A DNA stretch of 64,000 nucleotides from Kutzneria buriramensis (lineage in GTDB: Bacteria > Actinomycetota > Actinomycetes > Mycobacteriales > Pseudonocardiaceae), in contig NZ_QUNO01000019.1 in assembly GCF_003387475.1 (NCBI RefSeq), positions 1 through 64,000 on the forward strand. Direction: 5' to 3'. The notes under the pieces were generated by a model. That model had not been told where the DNA came from. It did not search any database and saw only the letters and a program-made list of their open reading frames with translations. The position numbers and the translations under genes are program-made. Positions 51,147-60,767 of the stretch are shown piece after piece. How positions within the stretch are numbered: the stretch's first letter is position 1; the number at the start of each line of letters is the position of its first letter.

Positions 51147-51163
51147 TCGGCAGGTGAACCGCC

Positions 51164-51198
51164 CTCGGGGCGCCGGTGGTCCGCACCGGCGCCCCGAG
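51164..51198 (+). terminator. Stem-loop terminator of the secreted-protein unit
   Basis: Perfect 15-bp stem CTCGGGGCGCCGGTG (51164-51178) / CACCGGCGCCCCGAG (51184-51198) with a 5-base loop, 17 bases after the I36-CHAP stop. Confidence 0.85.
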
Positions 51199-51235
51199 CG
51201 GCTCGCCCTCCCCGCTGGACGGGAGGCGGTTGAAC

Positions 51236-51279
51236 CGGCACAGGCCTCTGACCGACAATGGTCCGACTGGCCTGTGCCG
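51236..51279. repeat. Inverted repeat upstream of the NB-ARC regulator
   Basis: Perfect 11-bp arms CGGCACAGGCC (51236-51246) and GGCCTGTGCCG (51269-51279), separated by 22 bases, ending 30 bases before the start codon. It may be an operator or a 5' leader stem-loop. Confidence 0.6.
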
Positions 51280-51309
51280 TTTCGGCGGCTGACCGTTCCA
51301 GGGGGAGGA

Positions 51310-53592
51310 ATGGGCGGTAACGCCTTCGGCGAGCTTCTGCGCGACTGCCGGCTGTCGGTCGGCTGGACGCAGGACGAACTGGCCAGCCGGTCAGGGGTGT
51401 CCGCCCACTCGATCAGCGTGCTGGAGGCGGGGCGGCGACAGCCCCGGCTCTCCTCGGTGAGCCAGCTCGCCGAGGCCCTCGGACTCGACCCGGGCCGCCG
51501 TGAACAGCTGCTCGCGGCGGCGCGCACGGTCGCCACCCCGGCCGCGCTGATCCCGTCCCCGGAACCGGCCCCGCCGGCCGCCGCCCGGTCGAACGTGGCC
51601 GCACCCCGGCAGCTGCCGGCCGCGGTGGCCGGCTTCACCGGCCGGGCGTCCCAGCTCAAGGAGCTCACCAGCCTGCTGGATCGCAACGGCGCCGTGGTGA
51701 TCTCGACGATCAGCGGCACCGCGGGCGTCGGGAAGACGGCCCTGGCCGTGCACTGGTCGCACGAGGTCGCGGACCGGTTTCCCGACGGGCAGCTCTACGT
51801 CAACCTGCGGGGTTTCGACTCCAGCGGCCAGCCGGTCCAGCCCGCCGAGGCGATCCGGGGCTTCCTCGACGCGCTCGGCGTGCCGGCCCAGCAGATCCCG
51901 ACCGGCCTGGCCGAGCAGGCGGCGCTGTACCGATCCCAGCTGGCCGACCGCCGGATACTGGTGGTGCTGGACAATGCCCGCGACGCCGGCCAGGTCCGGC
52001 CGCTGCTGCCGGGCTCGGCCCAGTGCGTGACCGTCGTCACCAGCCGCGACCACCTCGGCGGCCTGATCGTCAGCGAGGGGGCGCAGGCCATCCCCCTGGA
52101 CCTGATGACCGCCGCCGAGGCCTACGACCTGCTGGCGAGCCGGCTGGGTCCGGAGCGGCTGGCCGCCGAACCGCGGGCCGTCAGCGACCTGATCGAGCTG
52201 TGCGCGAGCCTGCCGCTGGCGCTGAGCATCGTTGCCGCGCGAGCCACCCTCACTCCCACGCTGTCGCTGACCGAGCTGGCCGGCCAGCTGCGCGACGTCC
52301 GGGATCGGTTGCACGCCCTGGACATCGGCGACACCAGCGTGAACCTCAGCGCGGTGTTCTCCTGGTCGTACCGGACGCTGAGCGCCGGGGCGGCGCGGAT
52401 GTTCCGGCTGCTGAGCCTGCACCCGGGCCCGGTGATCTCGCTGTCGGCCGCCGCGAGCCTCGTCGGAACCGGCCGCGGCGACGCCCGCGCTGCTCTGGCC
52501 GAGCTGACCAGGGCGCAGCTGCTCACCGAACCCGGCGGCGGCCGGTTCGCCTACCACGACCTGCTGCGGGCGTACTCGGAAGGCCAGGCCGGCCAGGAGG
52601 AGAGCGAGCCGGCGCGCCGTGCCGCGATGCACCGCATGCTCGATCACTACCTCCACACGGCGCACGCCGCGGCGCTGCTGCTCAACCCGCCCAACGACCA
52701 GCTGTCCCTGGCCGAACTCCAGCCGGGCACGTACGTCGACGAACTCGCCGACGACGAGCAGGCATGGCAGTGGTTCACGACCGAGAGCCCGGTGTTCGCG
52801 GGAGCCATCGACCGCGCCGCCGGCGCCGGCTTCGACACCCACGCCTGGCAACTCGCCTGTAGCGTGGCCAGCTTCTGTATCCGTGCCGGGCAGTGGACGC
52901 AGATGGTCACGACCCACCTCGTCGCGGTCGCCGCGGCCGAACGCGCCGGCGAACCGCACGGACAGACGTGGTCCCTGCGGGAACTGGGCCGGGCGTACAT
53001 CCGCCTCGGCCGGTATCCCGACGCGCGCACCAGCCTGCTCCGCGCCCTCGAACTGGACGAGCGGCTCGGCGACCTGAGCGGTCAGGCACGCACCTACAAC
53101 AACCTCGGCATCGTGGCGCACGCGCAGGGCGACCACGCGGAGGCGCTGGAGCACGGCAAGACCGCCTACGCGTTGTTCCACGCGGCCGGACACCGGGCAG
53201 GCCAGGCCGACGCGCTGAACGCGATCGGCTGGATGCAGACGCAGCTGGGCCAGCACGCCGAGGCGCTGGACTCCTGCGGGCAAGCGCTCGAACTGCACCG
53301 CGCGGTCGGCAGTCGGCACGGCGAGGCCGACACGTGGGACAGCCTCGGCTACGCCCACCACAACCTCGGCGAGCACCAGCGGGCCGTCGCCTGCTACCAC
53401 AACGCCCTGGACCTGTACGAGAAGCTGGGCGCTCGCCATCCGCAGGCCGACACCCTGATGCGCCTCGGCGAGACGTACCAGGACGCGGGTGACTTCACCG
53501 CCGCCCATCAGGTCTGGCAGCGAGCTCTGCCCATCCTCGATGGTCTGCACCACCCCGACGCGGACGTCGTCCGCGCGCTGCTGGCGGAGTAG
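51310..53592 (+). CDS. XRE-NB-ARC-TPR regulator (AfsR/SARP-like STAND protein without SARP domain)
   Basis: The 760-aa protein has an XRE helix-turn-helix (about 5-65: LLRDCRLSVGWTQDELASRS, VSAHSISVLEAGRRQPRLSS) and an NB-ARC ATPase (about 110-400) with P-loop SGTAGVGKTALA near 136. LVVLDNARDAGQVRPLLPGS and the VVTSRDHLGGL sensor are also present, followed by a C-terminal series of TPRs (TYNNLGIVAHAQGDHAEALEH, DALNAIGWMQTQLGQHAEAL, TWDSLGYAHHNLGEHQRAVA). STAND switches of this type control secondary metabolism or development. ATG 51310 sits only one base after a GGGGGAGGA tract, an unusually close ribosome-binding site. Its end overlaps the convergent DUF692 gene by 98 bp. Confidence 0.88.
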   Translation: MGGNAFGELLRDCRLSVGWTQDELASRSGVSAHSISVLEAGRRQPRLSSVSQLAEALGLDPGRREQLLAAARTVATPAALIPSPEPAPPAAARSNVAAPRQLPAAVAGFTGRASQLKELTSLLDRNGAVVISTISGTAGVGKTALAVHWSHEVADRFPDGQLYVNLRGFDSSGQPVQPAEAIRGFLDALGVPAQQIPTGLAEQAALYRSQLADRRILVVLDNARDAGQVRPLLPGSAQCVTVVTSRDHLGGLIVSEGAQAIPLDLMTAAEAYDLLASRLGPERLAAEPRAVSDLIELCASLPLALSIVAARATLTPTLSLTELAGQLRDVRDRLHALDIGDTSVNLSAVFSWSYRTLSAGAARMFRLLSLHPGPVISLSAAASLVGTGRGDARAALAELTRAQLLTEPGGGRFAYHDLLRAYSEGQAGQEESEPARRAAMHRMLDHYLHTAHAAALLLNPPNDQLSLAELQPGTYVDELADDEQAWQWFTTESPVFAGAIDRAAGAGFDTHAWQLACSVASFCIRAGQWTQMVTTHLVAVAAAERAGEPHGQTWSLRELGRAYIRLGRYPDARTSLLRALELDERLGDLSGQARTYNNLGIVAHAQGDHAEALEHGKTAYALFHAAGHRAGQADALNAIGWMQTQLGQHAEALDSCGQALELHRAVGSRHGEADTWDSLGYAHHNLGEHQRAVACYHNALDLYEKLGARHPQADTLMRLGETYQDAGDFTAAHQVWQRALPILDGLHHPDADVVRALLAE

Positions 53593-54763
53593 CCAGATAG
53601 GACAGGAAGGCGGCGACGTCGGCGGACGCGCCGCCGGGCGGTTTGGGCCGGGATTCGGCGTAGTCGGCGAACAGCGGGCCGAGGCGGTCGCCGAGCTCGG
53701 CGGCGACGGCGGGCGCGTGGCGGGCGACCGCGTGGGATCGCTTGCGGACCAACGCGGATCGGGCGACGCCGAGTCGGTCGGCGTCGAAGCGCGGTGGCGG
53801 CTCGGTCAGCCCTACCAACGCTTCGGCCAGCAGGGACTGCATCGCCGCCAGGTCGCGCCGAAGGGCCGGTGCGACGGACGGGCCCGGCCGGTGGGGTGAT
53901 CGCACCGGGTGGTGCGGCATGGTGGCGCGTGGCGCGCCGGCGGTGGGTGGTTCTCGACCGACGGCGGTCCTGATGGCGGCCAGTTCGGCGGAAAGTGTTG
54001 CCGCGGCGGGAAAGTTGCCGTCGCGCTCCAGCATCACCGCCGGCAATGCCGTGCGGTGGGCGAGTTCGGTCAGCAGCGTCAGGATCGGCTCGGACACCGG
54101 CGAGGTGTGCGTGTCGTGCCACACCCCGTCCCGTAACTCGCCGCCGGCCACGTGCACGTACGCGATCCGGTCCAGCGGCAGCGCGTCCAGCGCGGCGATC
54201 GGATCGGCGCCGAAGTTGATGGCGGAGCTGACCAGGTTCGCGACGTCCAGCAGCAGCCGTGCGCCGGTGTGGTCGAGGATCTCGGCGAGGAACTGGGCCT
54301 CGGTCAGCTCGTCGTCCGGCCACGCCACCACGGCGGCGATGTTCTCCAGGGCCACTGGCACGCCGAGGAAGTCCTGCGCGATGCGGACGTTCTCGGAGAT
54401 CACGTCCACACTGGCGGGAGTGCGGGGTACCGGCAGCAGGTGCCCGGCCTCGCGGCCGTCCGCGCGGACGAACGCGATGTGCTCGCTGACCAGAGGGGCG
54501 TCCAGCGCGGCCGCGCAAGCCCCGAGATGGGCGAGGCGGCCCGGTGCGGGCCGCTGTGCACCACCGAGTGACAGGGAGACACCATGCGGCACAACGGGAA
54601 TTCCTCGTGCCCGCAGGAGGCGGAGCGATTCGGGAAGGCGTTGGGGCCGAATGCCTTCCGCGATCACCTCGACGAATTCCACTCCTGGCAGCCGTTCGAT
54701 GGTGAGGTCGATCTCCGGCCGCCAGCCGATGCCGACGGCCGGCCCGGGGCTGGGTGTCGTCAT
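53495..54763 (-). CDS. DUF692 / MNIO iron-dependent oxidase, RiPP-type tailoring enzyme
   Basis: The 422-aa protein has a TIM-barrel DUF692 domain (about 8-285). The residues expected to bind the multinuclear iron centre are present: His60 (PHGVSLSLGG), His95 (VSEHIAFV), Glu140 (ALENIAAV), Asp173/Asn176 (LLLDVANLV), His204 (YVHVAGGE), Asp217/His219 (WHDTHTSPV) and Glu246 (MLERDGNFP). Characterised MNIO enzymes (MbnB, TglH and others) oxidise cysteines of peptides into oxazolones, thiooxazoles or related groups. A helical C-terminal region (about 315-390), possibly a fused partner domain, and an Arg-rich tail follow. ATG 54763 overlaps the stop of the upstream Cys-tail membrane protein (ATGA), so both are made together. 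Confidence 0.88.
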   Translation of the reverse strand: MTTPSPGPAVGIGWRPEIDLTIERLPGVEFVEVIAEGIRPQRLPESLRLLRARGIPVVPHGVSLSLGGAQRPAPGRLAHLGACAAALDAPLVSEHIAFVRADGREAGHLLPVPRTPASVDVISENVRIAQDFLGVPVALENIAAVVAWPDDELTEAQFLAEILDHTGARLLLDVANLVSSAINFGADPIAALDALPLDRIAYVHVAGGELRDGVWHDTHTSPVSEPILTLLTELAHRTALPAVMLERDGNFPAAATLSAELAAIRTAVGREPPTAGAPRATMPHHPVRSPHRPGPSVAPALRRDLAAMQSLLAEALVGLTEPPPRFDADRLGVARSALVRKRSHAVARHAPAVAAELGDRLGPLFADYAESRPKPPGGASADVAAFLSYLATPPAARGRRPRRGGADHRGWAELAARPDGRR

Positions 54764-55620
54764 CCGCCGCATCCGCCCCCGCAGCCACCACCACATCCGC
54801 CGCCGCAACCGTCACCGCCGTCACCGCCGGTTCCGCTGGCCGGGCCGGTCATCAACGCCTGGCGCAGGTCGAGGTCCGGGACGGCCCCGAGGCCGAGTAC
54901 CGCGATCGCCAGCAGTCCCGGCGACGAGGCCGTGAGATAGTCGGCCTGCGGTGACGCGGCGTACTCGTGGTCCGCACGTGCGAGGCGCAGGTACCGGCGG
55001 CCGCCGGCCGAGGGGCGTTCTGTGATGACCAGCTCGATGACCACCATGGCCAGGACCGCGAACCCGCTGACGATGAGCAGGAAGACCAGGAAGCCGACGG
55101 GCCGGTCCAGGAGGGCGCCGTTGATCGCCCGCACCAGCCCGATGACCCACACCGCGACGGGCAGCAGCAAGGCCAGCCGGTACGGCAGCAGGCGCCAGCC
55201 CGTGACCAGCAGCCCGCTGGACAGCAGTTCATCACGGATCGCACGGATCGACGGGGCGTCGCGCAGTTCCCGGCGCACCGCTGCCGACCGCTGTCCGGCC
55301 GTGCCCACCGAGCGGTGAACCGCCAACTCGATCAGGTCGCGCACGGTGGCATCGGCCGCCGCGCTGAGTTCGCCCGTCCGGTTGACCAGAAGTGAGCCGC
55401 GGAGGGCGAGTGCGGCGATCGCGGTGTCCACCACCCGATCGGATCCGTCGGCCAGATAGGCGGCTCGATACGCGTCCAGTCGGACATCGGCACCGAGCGC
55501 GCTCGAGCCGGGCCGGTACAGCGGCGGCACAACAGTGTAGTTCAGGACCACCGCGACGACGAAACCCACTATGTAGAGCCAGATGAACTCAGGTCCGGAG
55601 ATTCCCCACGGATCACCCAT
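54760..55620 (-). CDS. TIGR04222-type membrane protein with C-terminal (CGGG)3CGG tail, candidate RiPP precursor
   Basis: The 286-aa protein has three predicted membrane segments (about 11-31, 145-170, 173-200) and an internal helical domain (SDRVVDTAIAALALRGSLLV; VHRSVGTAGQRSAAVRRELR). A soluble part ends in GTGGDGGDG followed by four cysteines at 272, 276, 280 and 284 at exact four-residue spacing. The repeat codons differ (TGC/TGT; GGC, GGA, GGT, GGG), so selection acts on the protein. The domain resembles TIGR04222, which I recall as a family found near DUF692. The DUF692 enzyme is the next gene with a four-base overlap. The tail is therefore the likely substrate, which would be held at the membrane. 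Confidence 0.82.
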   Translation of the reverse strand: MGDPWGISGPEFIWLYIVGFVVAVVLNYTVVPPLYRPGSSALGADVRLDAYRAAYLADGSDRVVDTAIAALALRGSLLVNRTGELSAAADATVRDLIELAVHRSVGTAGQRSAAVRRELRDAPSIRAIRDELLSSGLLVTGWRLLPYRLALLLPVAVWVIGLVRAINGALLDRPVGFLVFLLIVSGFAVLAMVVIELVITERPSAGGRRYLRLARADHEYAASPQADYLTASSPGLLAIAVLGLGAVPDLDLRQALMTGPASGTGGDGGDGCGGGCGGGCGGGCGG

Positions 55621-55696: not shown

Positions 55697-56119
55697 TCAG
55701 TCCCGGAAGGGGCCGTACTCGTACCAGTTCCGCACGTCGCTCTTGTTCAGCATGCCGATGACGGCGATGCCGACCCCGATGCCGATGAACCCGGTCAACG
55801 AGCCGGCGACCAGGTTGACGACACCGCTCAGGATGAGGAGCGCCTGGATGGTGATGACGGTGGGCCGGACCCAGGGCTGTGGGCGCACGGTGCAGGCGAT
55901 GCACAGCACCAGCAGCACGGCCAGTGCCAGGCTGAGGTAGCCGACGAGGTAGTCCAGGCCCGTGCCGCTGCCGCCGTCCTGGCTCAGGCTGGAGACGACC
56001 ACCCAACCGACGAATCCGTTGCCGAGCACTTGCAGGACCAGGACGGCCAGCACGCCTCGGAGACGGCCGGGCATGGACACGCGGTGCGCGTCTGCTGGTT
56101 CACCGGCGAGTTGACTCAT
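55697..56119 (-). CDS. Small four-helix membrane protein
   Basis: The 140-aa protein (ATG 56119, GGAGTGG upstream) has four predicted membrane segments (GVLAVLVLQVLGNGFVGWVV, LVGYLSLALAVLLVLCIACT, VITIQALLILSGVVNLVAGS, GFIGIGVGIAVIGMLN) and ends in a short polar tail (RNWYEYGPFRD). It is a typical actinobacterial membrane protein of unknown role. It is on the same strand as the TIGR04222/DUF692 pair, 76 bases upstream, but a hairpin lies between, so it may or may not belong to that system. It diverges from the kinase-WD40 gene. Confidence 0.6.
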   Translation of the reverse strand: MSQLAGEPADAHRVSMPGRLRGVLAVLVLQVLGNGFVGWVVVSSLSQDGGSGTGLDYLVGYLSLALAVLLVLCIACTVRPQPWVRPTVITIQALLILSGVVNLVAGSLTGFIGIGVGIAVIGMLNKSDVRNWYEYGPFRD

Positions 56120-56288
56120 GGCGCCACTCCTTCGTGATTCCCGTTTCGTCGTCATGTTCGGGGCGGCCGTCGATCGCGGGCTAGTGGAAACTTCCGGCGC
56201 TGTCGCGGCCGAGTGGCCGTCGGCAGCGCGGCTGATCACGGGTACTCTGTGCCCCCGGATTTGCGCCGACGGTCTGGTGGGGTGGGCG

Positions 56289-59200
56289 ATGGTGTCCGGT
56301 GCGGGGAGCTCGGCGGGGACGTCCGAATCAGCGGAGTTCGGGCCGTATCGCCTGGTGGCACTGATCGGCCGGGGTGGCATGGGGCTGGTCCATCGGGCCC
56401 ACGACACCAGGCACGACCGGACCGTCGCGCTCAAGCGGCTGCCGGTGTCGGCGGCCGAGCACGAGTTCCGCAACAGGTTCCGGCGCGAGGCCCGGATCGT
56501 GGCGAACCTACAGCACCCGAACGTGGTCCCGGTCAACGACTTCGGCGAGATCGACGGGCAGCTGTTCCTGGACATGATGCTGGTGCAGGGGACCGATCTG
56601 CGCCGCGCGCTGGGCGCCGGGACGATCGGTCCGGAGCAGGCGCTGCTCGTGCTCACTCAGGTGGCCCAGGCGCTGGACGCGGCGCACGCGAACGGGTTGG
56701 TCCATCGGGACGTCAAGCCGTCCAATGTCCTGATCGACGGCGACGGGCACGCCTATCTGGCCGATTTCGGCATCGCCAGGGACATGGCGGCGGAGGCGAC
56801 CGCGCTGACCGGGTCGGGCGAATTGATCGGCTCATGGGACTACATGGCGCCGGAGCGGCTGTCCGGCGGCCCGGTCGACGGCCGGGCGGACCAGTATTCG
56901 CTGGCGTGTGTGCTGTTCGAGTGCCTGACCGGGCGGTTGCCGCACCCTGAAGTCGACCCGGCGGCCAAGGTGGCCGCACACCTGCTGCGGCCGCCGCCGG
57001 CGCCGTCGGTGTTCGCCCCGACCGTCACTCCGGAACTGGACGCGGTGGTGCTGCGTGGTCTGTCGAAGGATCCCGCGCGCCGCTTCCCGTCCGTGACCGA
57101 GCTGATGGCTGCCGCGCAGTCCGCGGCGTACGCGGGCGAGACGCGGCGAGAGGCAGCCCCGACGCTGGCCGGACCGGCGGCGCGGGAACGTGACCAGAGT
57201 CGGCTGGTACGGGCGATTCTGCGGTCCACGGCCGTGCGCGAGCCGACGCCGCCGGCACCGGACGCCGATCCGCCGCCCTGTCCATACCCCGGGTTGCGCG
57301 AGTTCGGCAGCGCGGACGCGGCGTGGTTCCACGGTCGCGCGCACGTGGTCACGGATCTGTTGGTGCGCTTGGCCGAACAGCTCGACACCGGGGAACCGGT
57401 GGTGCTGTTCGGCGCGTCCGGCGCTGGCAAGTCGTCGGTGCTGCTCGCCGGTCTGCTGCCCGCGTTGGCCAGCGCGGACGCGCCGGAACACGCCGCGTGG
57501 CCGCAGATCGTGCTGACCCCGGGCGCCGACCCGATCGGCAGCCTGGCCGCCGCCCTCGCCGCACGGACCGCCGTCGACGCCACCGAATGGATCCGGGTGA
57601 TCCGGGAGGAGCCGTCCCGGCTCGGCGCGATGTGCGCCCAGGCCGTCGGGGACGACGCGGTCCACCCGGTGATCGTGGTCGACCAGTTCGAGGAACTGTT
57701 CACCCACGGCGCCCCGGAGCCGGACCGGCTGGCGTTCGCCACGGCGGTCGCCAGCGCGCGTCCGGTGCTGGTCGTGCTGGCGGTGCGGGCGGATCTGGTC
57801 GAACGCTGCATCGAACTGGCCCCACTGGTGCCGGCGCTGAACTCGCCGGTGCTGTTGGGGCCCATGGACGTCGTCGCGTTGCGACAGGTGATCGTGGCGC
57901 CGGCTCGGGACGTCGGCGTGGACGTCGAGCCGGGCCTGCCCGAGCGGCTGATCGCCGACCTGGGGGTGCGGGGCGAGTCCGGCTACGACCCCGGCGCGCT
58001 GCCCCGGCTGGCGCACGTCCTGCGGGAGACCTGGAACCGCAGCGACGGCCGGACCCTGACGGTGGCCGCGTACCGGGAAGCGGGCGGCATCGACGGGTCG
58101 GTGGCCCGCACGGCCGAGGAGATCTACACCCAGCTGGACCCGGCCGCCCGGGCGGCGTTGCGGTCGATGGTGCTGCGGCTGGCGACCGTGTCCGACGACG
58201 GCGGTGTCGTGCGACGCCGTGTGGACCCGGGCGATCTCGTTGCCGCGGAAGGACATCCGGCGGTGCTGGACCGGCTGATCGCGGCCCGGCTGGTGACGGT
58301 GGACGAGTCCGGGGCACGGTTGGCCCACGAGGCGCTGTTGTCGGCGTGGCCGCGGCTGCGGGACTGGATCGACGAGGACCGCGCCGGGCTGAGCCAGTAC
58401 CGCCGGTTCGGCGAGGCCGTCCGGGCCTGGACGGAGTCCGGCGAGCAGGCCGACGACCTCTACCGCGGAGTGCGGCTGGCCACGCTGAACGCCTGGCTGG
58501 AGTCGACCGGCGACCGGATGCGGCTGCCGACCGCCGAGCACGACTTCCTGGCCAGGTCGAACGCGGCCGAGCGGACCGGCATCGCGGCGGCTCGACGGCG
58601 GACCCGGCGACTGCGCGTGCTGGTGGCGGCGTTGTCGGTGCTGCTGGTCGTCGCGTCGGTGGCGATCGTCGTGGCCACCCGGCTGCGCCAGGACGCGCTG
58701 GATCAGAGCCAGCTCAGCCTGTCCCGGCAGCTGGCCGCGGAGTCGGCCCTGGCCAGGGGCGTCGATCCGGTGGGGGAGGGGCTGACCGCGCTCAGCGCCT
58801 GGCAGGCCGGACAGACGGTCGAGGCGCGCAGCGCGTTGCTGAACGCCCAGCAGGACAACTTCCGAGGGGAGCTCCTGGGCCACACGGCCATCGCGACCTC
58901 GGTCGCGGTCAGCGCCAACGGGCGGATCGCGGCCAGCGGCAGCCAGGACGGCACACTGCGGCTGTGGGACGTCCCGAACCGACGCGCCCTGGCCACCCTG
59001 GCCACCGGCGGCGGGTGGTACCACTCGGTCTCGCTGTCCGCCGACGGCCGGCTGCTGGCCGCGCTCGACATCGATCAGCGGTCGGCGAGCCTGTGGGACG
59101 TCGCCCGCCGCGTGAAGGTGTTCACCGCTCCCGACAAGTCCTCCGGCACGGCGGTCTCGCCCGACGGCCGGATGTTCGCCGTCTCGACCGAGGGCGGCCT

Positions 59201-60767
59201 GGTGATCCGCGACACGAGTTCGTTCGCACAACTCGCCGTGCTCCCGGTGGGAGCGTCGACCGTCGTGAGGTTCGGCCCGGACAGTCGGATGATCGCCGTG
59301 GACGACGCCAACCACGACATCGACGTGTACCGGCTGTCCGACGCGACGTTACTCGCCACCCTCACCGGGGCCACCAGCCTCATCACGTCGCTCGACTTCG
59401 ACCGGACCGGCTCCCTGTTGGTCAGCAGCACGTCCTCGGGGCCGGTTCTACTGTGGAACACCAGTAGCTGGACCCAACAGCGGACACTTCAGATGCCGGA
59501 CGGTTCGGTCGCGGTCACGGCGCGGCTGTCCCCGGACGGCCAGTTGGTCGTGGCCGGCGGTGAGGGGACCGACGTGCAGGTGTGGGACGCCGGCACCGGC
59601 CAGCTGCTGCAGGCCCTGCCGCTGCCGACCCAGACGGGCATGGTCGCCCTCGCGCTGAGCGGCGACGGGCACACCCTGTTGGGCGCCAGCGAGAGCGGCC
59701 CGGTCATCGTGTGGTCGCTGGGCCGGACGACGCTCGCGTCCGAGGACGGCGCCGTCACCGCGGTGGCGTTCCAGCCCCACGGTCGACTCCTGGCGACCGG
59801 CACCGGCGCCGGTTCGGTCCGCCTGTGGGACACCACCACCGATGACCTGGTTCGGAACCTGCCGACCCACCAGAGCGCCGTGCTGTCCATCGCGTTCAGC
59901 CCGGACGGCCGCGAACTCGCGACGGCCGACGACAGCGGAACCCTGATCCTCCGGGACTCGGCGACCGGCGCCGAGCTCCACCGGTACGCCGGGTCCGGCG
60001 GCGGTTTCCACAGCCTCGCGTTCAGCCCGGACGGCACGACGATCGCGGTGGCCGTCCGGGCGTCGGACAGCGGCACGCCGGATGACAACGAAGTGCTGCT
60101 GCTCAAGGCGGTGGATCTGACCGTGCGCGCACGGCACGCCACCGCCCAGGAACCGCACAACAGCGTGCCCAACGCGAAAGCCGCCGGCAGCAACGACCCG
60201 AACGAGGTCGCGTTCAGCCCGGACGGCCGCACGCTGGCGGTCGCGTTGTCCGGGGGCCGGATCGGGCTGTGGAACATGGTCCATCCGGACGCCGCGTGGA
60301 CCACGCTTGGTGGGCACGACGACATCGCCGACACTGTGGCGTTCAGTCCGGACGGCACGATCCTGGCGTCCGCCGGCGCGGACCGGATGGTGCGACTGTG
60401 GCGGGTGTCGGACGGCCAGCAGATCGGCACTCTCACCAGTGCCGTCGTGGTGCGCAAGGTCGCGTTCGACCCGGACGGCACGATCCTGGCCGCCGTCGGT
60501 GAGGACTCCGTGGTGCGCATCTGGGACGTGCGCACCCGCCAACCGGTCGACCAACTCGACCGGAGCAGGGACACCCTCAACGATGTCGCGTTCGACGCGA
60601 CCGGGCAGCGGGTGGCCAGCGCGAGCGTGGACGGCGCCACCCGGATCTGGGACCTGAACCCGGACGACGCCGTGCGGACGATGTGCGGTCTGGTCGACCG
60701 CGCCACACTGACGCAGCGGTGGCAGGCCCTCGGACCGGACCATGGGGCTGCGCCCACGTGCCCGTGA
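56289..60767 (+). CDS. Ser/Thr kinase - nSTAND1 NTPase - WD40 repeat protein
   Basis: The 1492-aa protein combines three parts. The active-looking PknB-type kinase (about 20-275) has IGRGGMGLV, Lys49, HRDVKPSN (Asp141, Asn146) and DFGIAR (Asp159). An nSTAND1-type NTPase (about 330-770) has P-loop GASGAGKSS at 375-383 and 'VIVVDQFEELF'. A membrane segment (about 776-798, VLVAALSVLLVVASVAIVVA) and about 12-14 WD40 blades (about 860-1480, for example VAFSPDGTILASAGADRMVR) complete it. The WD40 sensor would lie outside or at the membrane, depending on topology. Such proteins are proposed receptors for stress or invader signals, and some are linked to conflict systems. An FHA-like protein follows. 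Confidence 0.9.
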   Translation: MVSGAGSSAGTSESAEFGPYRLVALIGRGGMGLVHRAHDTRHDRTVALKRLPVSAAEHEFRNRFRREARIVANLQHPNVVPVNDFGEIDGQLFLDMMLVQGTDLRRALGAGTIGPEQALLVLTQVAQALDAAHANGLVHRDVKPSNVLIDGDGHAYLADFGIARDMAAEATALTGSGELIGSWDYMAPERLSGGPVDGRADQYSLACVLFECLTGRLPHPEVDPAAKVAAHLLRPPPAPSVFAPTVTPELDAVVLRGLSKDPARRFPSVTELMAAAQSAAYAGETRREAAPTLAGPAARERDQSRLVRAILRSTAVREPTPPAPDADPPPCPYPGLREFGSADAAWFHGRAHVVTDLLVRLAEQLDTGEPVVLFGASGAGKSSVLLAGLLPALASADAPEHAAWPQIVLTPGADPIGSLAAALAARTAVDATEWIRVIREEPSRLGAMCAQAVGDDAVHPVIVVDQFEELFTHGAPEPDRLAFATAVASARPVLVVLAVRADLVERCIELAPLVPALNSPVLLGPMDVVALRQVIVAPARDVGVDVEPGLPERLIADLGVRGESGYDPGALPRLAHVLRETWNRSDGRTLTVAAYREAGGIDGSVARTAEEIYTQLDPAARAALRSMVLRLATVSDDGGVVRRRVDPGDLVAAEGHPAVLDRLIAARLVTVDESGARLAHEALLSAWPRLRDWIDEDRAGLSQYRRFGEAVRAWTESGEQADDLYRGVRLATLNAWLESTGDRMRLPTAEHDFLARSNAAERTGIAAARRRTRRLRVLVAALSVLLVVASVAIVVATRLRQDALDQSQLSLSRQLAAESALARGVDPVGEGLTALSAWQAGQTVEARSALLNAQQDNFRGELLGHTAIATSVAVSANGRIAASGSQDGTLRLWDVPNRRALATLATGGGWYHSVSLSADGRLLAALDIDQRSASLWDVARRVKVFTAPDKSSGTAVSPDGRMFAVSTEGGLVIRDTSSFAQLAVLPVGASTVVRFGPDSRMIAVDDANHDIDVYRLSDATLLATLTGATSLITSLDFDRTGSLLVSSTSSGPVLLWNTSSWTQQRTLQMPDGSVAVTARLSPDGQLVVAGGEGTDVQVWDAGTGQLLQALPLPTQTGMVALALSGDGHTLLGASESGPVIVWSLGRTTLASEDGAVTAVAFQPHGRLLATGTGAGSVRLWDTTTDDLVRNLPTHQSAVLSIAFSPDGRELATADDSGTLILRDSATGAELHRYAGSGGGFHSLAFSPDGTTIAVAVRASDSGTPDDNEVLLLKAVDLTVRARHATAQEPHNSVPNAKAAGSNDPNEVAFSPDGRTLAVALSGGRIGLWNMVHPDAAWTTLGGHDDIADTVAFSPDGTILASAGADRMVRLWRVSDGQQIGTLTSAVVVRKVAFDPDGTILAAVGEDSVVRIWDVRTRQPVDQLDRSRDTLNDVAFDATGQRVASASVDGATRIWDLNPDDAVRTMCGLVDRATLTQRWQALGPDHGAAPTCP

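Follow-up and report, generated by a model that had tools for sequence, protein, structure and literature searches.

A Cys/Gly-tailed TIGR04222 membrane protein and a partner-fused MNIO in Kutzneria buriramensis: a published but uncharacterized pairing, with three additions

Among the closest described relatives of the system reported here are the TIGR04222-MNIO clusters of Antoine et al. (2025; PMC12452194; this and the other papers are cited from the available parts of their text). According to that paper, TIGR04222 proteins make up ∼40% of the signal-peptide-less Cys proteins encoded directly before genes for MNIO (DUF692) enzymes. It treats the TIGR04222 family as lacking signal peptides, describes its C termini as Ser/Gly-rich with cysteines, and regards subsets as likely MNIO substrates whose product is unknown. 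A bacteriocin cluster of Pseudonocardia also contains a TIGR04222-domain peptide that has been named as putatively ribosomal (PMC5183585), and the available parts of PMC12710340 and PMC4991794 hold nothing on the TIGR04222-MNIO system. Related MNIOs turn EGKCG repeats into 5-thiooxazole, with products that bind copper (PMC13097082), and the partner in TglHI contributes to the catalytic pocket (PMC10880893). Here we analyze one such pair, a TIGR04222 membrane protein ending in a Cys/Gly tail and the MNIO encoded behind it, in the first 64,000 nucleotides of the Kutzneria buriramensis contig NZ_QUNO01000019.1 (the window; coordinates count from its first letter). An earlier note on this DNA knew of no described product for the pairing, which agrees with the available text of Antoine et al., and took the pairing itself to be undescribed, which we reject because TIGR04222-MNIO clusters with Cys tails are in that paper. 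The work is thus a confirmed observation of a published but uncharacterized pairing, plus three additions: a partner domain fused to the MNIO, the occurrence of the tail on other carriers, and charge evidence that favors the cytosolic side of the membrane.

The window protein belongs to NCBIfam TIGR04222 (a profile search with the 54760-55620 product scores 114.8 bits, where the cut-off is 43) and ends GDG-(CGGG)3-CGG. Its only cysteines are residues 272, 276, 280, and 284, and residues 272-286 are exclusively Cys and Gly; the translation bears out the four cysteines at four-residue spacing in a pure Gly background read by the earlier note. The exact spacing is local to this protein, relatives having spacings of mostly 3-10, and across tails Gly directly follows 178 of 208 cysteines in one count and 302 of 333 in another. 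Pairwise comparison of the three complete CGGG units gives nine differences, all nine at third codon positions, which upholds the synonymous variation claimed previously and argues against a recent tandem duplication of DNA as the origin of the array. Of the 518 stop-to-stop frames of at least 60 residues in the window, just one, the frame with this tail, contains the pattern (CG2-4)3C.

The adjoining MNIO gene starts with the ATG at 54763, giving the four-base ATGA overlap with the TIGR04222 stop that had been reported, and its product is a member of Pfam PF05114 (259 bits; gathering cut-off 25); reference versions ending at 54769 are two residues longer than the 422-residue gene. The iron ligands of TglH are H71, H107, E151, D184, N187, H216, D229, H231, and E258 (PMC10880893), and by alignment eight of them map to H95, E140, D173, N176, H204, D217, H219, and E246 of the window enzyme. 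TglH H71 lies outside the TglH alignment; we equate it with window residue H60, opposite which 3bww also has a His in the alignment. None of the nine residues varies among 20 aligned relatives, so the complete ligand set seen by the earlier note is confirmed. With a C-proximal Cys segment and an adjoining MNIO, the pair falls within the subset of Antoine et al., and the same genome (G000) has another TIGR04222-MNIO pair, whose Cys/Gly tail differs from this one (contig C3, locus L002).

How regularly tail and enzyme go together was determined in a class survey of 296 genomes with 96 TIGR04222 hits (three second fragments of the same proteins excluded), counting as a neighbor any same-strand MNIO no more than 2.5 kb away. 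We found 38 hits with both Cys tail and MNIO, six with the tail only, 17 with the MNIO only, and 35 with neither (Fisher test, 1.1e-7). Without one genus, g24, which we call Streptomyces-like since Streptomyces supplies most of the named loci with this layout, the counts are 29, 6, 2, and 28 (2.7e-10). A test proposed in the earlier note, co-occurrence of the tail with DUF692, therefore gives a positive answer: MNIO-adjacent TIGR04222 proteins, rather than mostly lacking the Cys tail, carry it in 38 of 55 cases (29 of 31 outside g24), against 6 of 41 nonadjacent ones. Conversely, 38 of the 44 Cys tails adjoin an MNIO; of the six that do not, four come from genomes that encode an MNIO at another place, one sits at the end of a contig (G079), and one is a frame artifact (G183), the last two remaining counted in the figures above. 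Outside g24, a Cys/Gly tail is within reach at 34 of 38 MNIO loci, after two of nine rows scored as a tail on another protein (L163 and L113) were discounted on reading as false tails. In the named loci, which are the best 80 of 561 rather than randomly sampled, a strict rule finds a Cys-tailed TIGR04222 protein at 54 of 80. These observations support the Cys tail and MNIO adjacency as a linked pair.

Two kinds of locus with other arrangements were also seen. At L130 (G038, 5645519-5646535, plus strand), a TIGR04222 frame weakly matches the partner profile described below (21.7 bits) and has neither Cys tail nor adjoining MNIO; its near relatives on the tree have both, and it may represent a deletion removing tail and enzyme together. 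Five g24 loci (L088, L052, L045, L153, and L152) encode MNIO-partner fusions without a nearby Cys/Gly tail, followed by a frame of ∼260-340 residues with a Pro/Ser-rich end. These frames apparently form one family, by eye resembling a neighbor family present at 27 loci, and in three of the five a Cys-less TIGR04222 protein follows.

The window MNIO carries a C-terminal extension of ∼150 residues, overlooked in the earlier note, that matches no Pfam or NCBIfam family. Over 92 residues it shares 41% identity (E 5e-16) with a 110-residue open reading frame (ORF) that stands alone in L002, the second operon of the same genome, and a partner profile was iterated from these two seeds. This domain is present at 61 of the 62 MNIO loci of the class survey (69 MNIO hits above 100 bits, minus seven without a fetched region), fused to the MNIO at 33 and as a separate ORF close downstream at 28. 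It is also present at 77 of the 80 named loci, 36 fused and 41 separate; two of the remaining three are cut off by a contig end no more than 200 bases from the MNIO domain, and the third, L204, is truly without a partner nearby. On a 142-row MNIO tree (in which one partner-less row, G237, is labeled separate) the fused or separate state needs 11 changes, five of them forced by supported branches.

Pfam does not place the bufferin-type partner, DUF2063 (PME-type 1), in the window system: neither a search of the extension at E 5 nor one of the G000 genome at E 0.001 gives a DUF2063 match. Comparison of the partner with DUF2063 domains by hhalign scores 25.5 over 89 columns, a likeness assigned a probability of only 15%, where 60 shuffles reach at most 16.1 and 28 unrelated neighbor families at most 21.3. 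A PDB sequence search with the partner profile found no significant match (best E 0.16). The domain lacks the DUF2063 signature and is positioned after the MNIO, and from these sequence features we read it as a PME-type 2 partner. According to Antoine et al., at least 10% of TIGR04222 clusters have a PME-type 2 partner and in many no partner gene is apparent, and how the latter could work is an open question in the available text (PMC12452194); a partner that in this survey is nearly always present, and often fused, would bear on it. No report of an MNIO-partner fusion is among the matches listed in our literature search, and a partner domain fused to the MNIO, with fused or separate forms at nearly every locus examined, is new here in the sense of not being found in print.

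MNIO loci without a TIGR04222 gene also exist, and there the Cys/Gly tail is on other proteins beside the MNIO. Eight are short carriers with one predicted membrane helix (L155, L156, L157, L159, L160, and L164 in the survey, plus L262 and L271), several of them close relatives and so fewer than eight independent cases. Two more (L158 and L260, 46% identical) look soluble and lack a strongly hydrophobic stretch (peaks 1.39 and 1.26). Pfam searches of six one-helix or soluble carriers gave nothing above cut-off and one match at E 0.17. At least three kinds of carrier thus bear Cys/Gly tails next to an MNIO and partner. The tail moves between carriers, an observation that we have not found in print; no report of the tail on non-TIGR04222 carriers is among the matches listed in the literature search.

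The side of the membrane on which the tail lies can be approached through the distribution of lysine plus arginine (K+R). In TIGR04222 proteins with exactly three hydrophobic segments (15 of 38 Cys-tailed rows of alignment A3 and 15 of 41 survey rows, sets that overlap in species), mean K+R counts for A3 and the survey, respectively, are 0.07 and 0.0 before transmembrane segment 1 (TM1), 3.7 and 3.2 after TM1, 0.6 and 0.7 in the TM2-TM3 loop, and 4.1 and 5.1 after TM3. In 29 of these 30 proteins K+R is higher after TM1 and TM3 than at the N terminus and in the TM2-TM3 loop, and in one it is equal; this pattern points to an N-out protein with a C-terminal region that would start in the cytosol. 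The one-helix carriers have four to seven K/R on the tail side and none or one on the other side in all eight cases. The window protein itself has no K+R before TM1, two after it, one in the TM2-TM3 loop, five after TM3, and one after a weak fourth segment. Charge evidence of this kind, which we have not found in print, favors the cytosolic side, and the surface-displayed tail of the earlier note is not supported, with the fourth segment keeping an outside tail possible.

A PDB search with the TIGR04222 profile gave low-complexity tail matches from E 0.0018 and otherwise weak matches to the loop. Within A3 profile positions 23-157, the TM1-TM2 loop, weak matches to winged-helix proteins were seen, of the CRP type from E 0.018 and of the MarR type at ∼0.7; these are suggestive, and a winged-helix likeness would fit a cytosolic loop.

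Table 1. Positions of the features discussed, in window coordinates unless a locus is named
Feature	Position	Strand	Basis or remark
TIGR04222 membrane protein, proposed tail carrier	54760..55620	minus	286 residues; NCBIfam TIGR04222, 114.8 bits; ORF
TM1, residues 13-31	55528..55584	minus	Kyte-Doolittle peak 2.24; no K/R before TM1
TM2, residues 149-167	55120..55176	minus	Kyte-Doolittle peak 2.07
TM3, residues 177-195	55036..55092	minus	Kyte-Doolittle peak 3.05; then basic stretch, 5 K/R in 20 residues
Weak fourth hydrophobic segment, residues 229-247	54880..54936	minus	Kyte-Doolittle peak 1.79; insertion score 1.9
Cys/Gly tail (CGGG)3CGG, residues 272-286, proposed MNIO substrate	54763..54807	minus	Translation
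ATGA overlap, TIGR04222 stop and MNIO start	54760..54763	minus	Sequence and translations
MNIO (DUF692) enzyme with C-terminal partner domain	53495..54763	minus	422 residues; PF05114, 259 bits; translation
MNIO TIM-barrel domain, nine conserved iron-ligand residues	53963..54736	minus	PF05114, alignments
Partner domain, fused in window MNIO (approximate limits)	53585..53860	minus	41% identity to stand-alone ORF; profile; alignment A2
Stand-alone partner, 110-residue ORF, second operon of the same genome	L002:162-494	minus	Third ORF of locus

We propose that the operon makes a membrane-tethered Cys-Gly array together with the enzyme that would modify it. A three-helix, N-out topology, as predicted from the sequence, would leave the tail in the cytosol, where the MNIO could reach it without an export step. 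The enzyme, presumably self-sufficient through its DUF2063-like domain, would oxidize the Cys-Gly units, as known MNIO chemistry suggests, the most likely products being 5-thiooxazoles or oxazolone/thioamides of the kind known from bufferins, fontiphorin, and methanobactins. This would leave a patch at the membrane that binds copper. Anchoring would fall to the TIGR04222 part, which might also act in recognition and is replaceable in relatives. The parts of this proposal differ in strength. The tail is probably the MNIO substrate, and we lean toward its being cytosolic. Copper binding by the product, argued from analogy, is conceivable and somewhat doubtful, and the identity of the metal is a guess because no copper gene was recognized by eye among the 30 commonest neighbor families. 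Taken whole, a fusion of MNIO and partner that oxidizes a Cys-Gly tail into a membrane-held copper-binding array may be right or wrong with about equal chance, our confidence in this and in the cytosolic step being lowered by the weak fourth segment of the window protein. More broadly, and tentatively, the system may be one of protein-tail modification rather than a leader-peptide RiPP (ribosomally synthesized and posttranslationally modified peptide): a Cys-Gly module grafted onto varied cytosol-facing carriers (three-helix TIGR04222 proteins, one-helix anchors, and soluble proteins), with a self-contained fusion making permanent, uncleaved metal-binding groups.

A number of findings weigh against this proposal. 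Fifteen of the 17 Cys-less, MNIO-adjacent TIGR04222 proteins form one g24 clade, a Cys/Gly tail is near only 9 of 24 MNIO loci in g24, and in G181 the MNIO adjoins a TIGR04222 protein with a Gly/Ser tail without Cys. A phylogenetic sign test, which took 83 of the 96 TIGR04222 hits, has only five independent pairs on supported branches (median p 0.25) and no power; in those pairs the traits agree in 2.5 on average and are never opposite. The likeness of the partner to DUF2063 is weak, and among the 30 commonest neighbor families, which are unannotated, no copper gene was recognized by eye. The window protein is not one of the 30 three-segment proteins, being among the 36 Cys-tailed proteins that show a fourth segment at a lax cut-off, and this segment has an insertion score of 1.9 against 1.5 for TM2. 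Finally, Antoine et al. place TIGR04222 tails in the periplasm, from AlphaFold models and predicted topology (PMC12452194, available text).

The last three points bear on the alternative that survives best, although we consider it rather unlikely: the tail is extracytoplasmic, the modification preceding or accompanying insertion and display on the outside coming afterward, which is the view that Antoine et al. take of TIGR04222 proteins. The stretch after TM3 could be a fourth helix (in the window, residues 229-247); should it cross the membrane, the tail would lie outside. At the lax cut-off, 22 of the 38 Cys-tailed proteins in A3 and 14 of the 41 in the survey show four segments, and 22 of 78 proteins reach a peak of 1.6 in the fourth stretch. 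Against this, over 83 proteins the fourth stretch is predicted to insert poorly, with a median score of 4.5 compared with −0.35, 1.0, and 0.1 for TM1 to TM3. Furthermore, K+R averages 3.9 before the fourth segment against 1.8 and 2.1 after it, and is higher before it in 27 of 36 four-segment proteins, which fits a cytosolic start and leaves spanning unsettled. The one-helix carriers, with K/R on the tail side throughout, and the existence of a carrier without a strong hydrophobic segment also speak for the cytosolic tail that we prefer.

Another MNIO chemistry on the cysteines, such as macrocyclization, carbon excision, or cross-links between carriers, with a redox or structural role instead of copper binding, is unlikely by our reckoning. 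Characterized MNIOs are chemically diverse in the available literature, the window MNIO scores below all five NCBIfam equivalog cut-offs listed, and the 30 commonest neighbor families include no copper gene recognized by eye. However, its best-scoring NCBIfam models, both under cut-off, are the bufferin and HvfB maturases (NF050167, 184 against 310 bits, and NF003818, 156 against 360), and most tail cysteines are in Cys-Gly units. This Cys-Gly context is the extent of the agreement between the window tail and the 5-thiooxazole-forming, copper-binding bufferins and captophorins.

A further alternative, which we regard as improbable, is that the tail cysteines stay unmodified and bind metal or redox agents while the MNIO acts on some other product. 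The four survey tails whose genomes hold an MNIO only elsewhere would be explained, as would the 15 of 24 g24 MNIO loci without a nearby Cys/Gly tail, and MNIOs can act on non-Cys residues (PMC12452194, available text); against it stand the 34 of 38 loci outside g24 with a tail within reach and the 30 commonest neighbor families, in which no other candidate common to all was recognized by eye. Last, low-complexity drift in a G+C-rich genome beside an MNIO by coincidence has a negligible chance of being correct: Gly/Ser/Asp-rich, Cys-less tails do occur in TIGR04222 proteins without an adjoining MNIO, but we reject chance low complexity on the third-position-only differences among the units, the rarity of the pattern in the window, and the association in the class survey, which extends over many genera.

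On the 142-row MNIO tree the window enzyme groups with three fused Mycolicibacterium/Mycobacterium enzymes (78% identity). A further sequence close to it is found in the same genome at L005 (G000 contig C7, 430893-434174), where an ORF at 1111-2046 on the minus strand contains a C-terminal MNIO half and the partner domain, in frame behind what by eye is an ornithine/lysine N-hydroxylase start; its appearance suggests a truncated copy or a join made during assembly. Within the window, the 3′ end of the MNIO gene overlaps by 98 bases (53495-53592) the 3′ end of an ORF on the plus strand (51154-53592) that by eye encodes an AfsR-like regulator, and a 1,549-residue ORF at 56118-60767 resembles by eye a Ser/Thr protein kinase with WD40-type repeats.

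If the proposal holds, MNIOs would build permanent arrays of modified cysteines on membrane-held proteins, and not only on secreted peptides, and a single-chain MNIO-partner fusion would reduce the system to two genes, one for the enzyme and one for the tail. With TglHI and MbnBC the window MNIO shares the conserved TglH iron ligands; there, however, the partner is on a separate chain and TglI contains a RiPP recognition element (RRE) domain, whereas no RRE-like part was recognized in the window MNIO. The bufferins, fontiphorin, and oxazolin (captophorins) have related MNIOs and repeated Cys-Gly units (EGKCG in fontiphorin and oxazolin) and share a possible role in copper handling, but their precursors have Sec signal peptides and PME-type 1 partners, in place of the membrane-protein tail seen here. 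The PME-type 2 partners of PMC12452194 are, like the domain described here, short, without a DUF2063 signature, and located after the MNIO, the 110-residue L002 protein being close in length to the 115-residue example A of that paper; the window partner differs in being fused to the MNIO C terminus, an arrangement not found in the available text. In the TIGR04222-MNIO clusters of the same paper, a TIGR04222 protein with a C-terminal Cys/Gly-rich segment likewise adjoins an MNIO, mostly in Actinomycetota. There, as far as the available text goes, the tail is placed in the periplasm and a partner often seems to be missing, whereas in the pair described here the partner is fused to the enzyme and the charges favor the cytosol.

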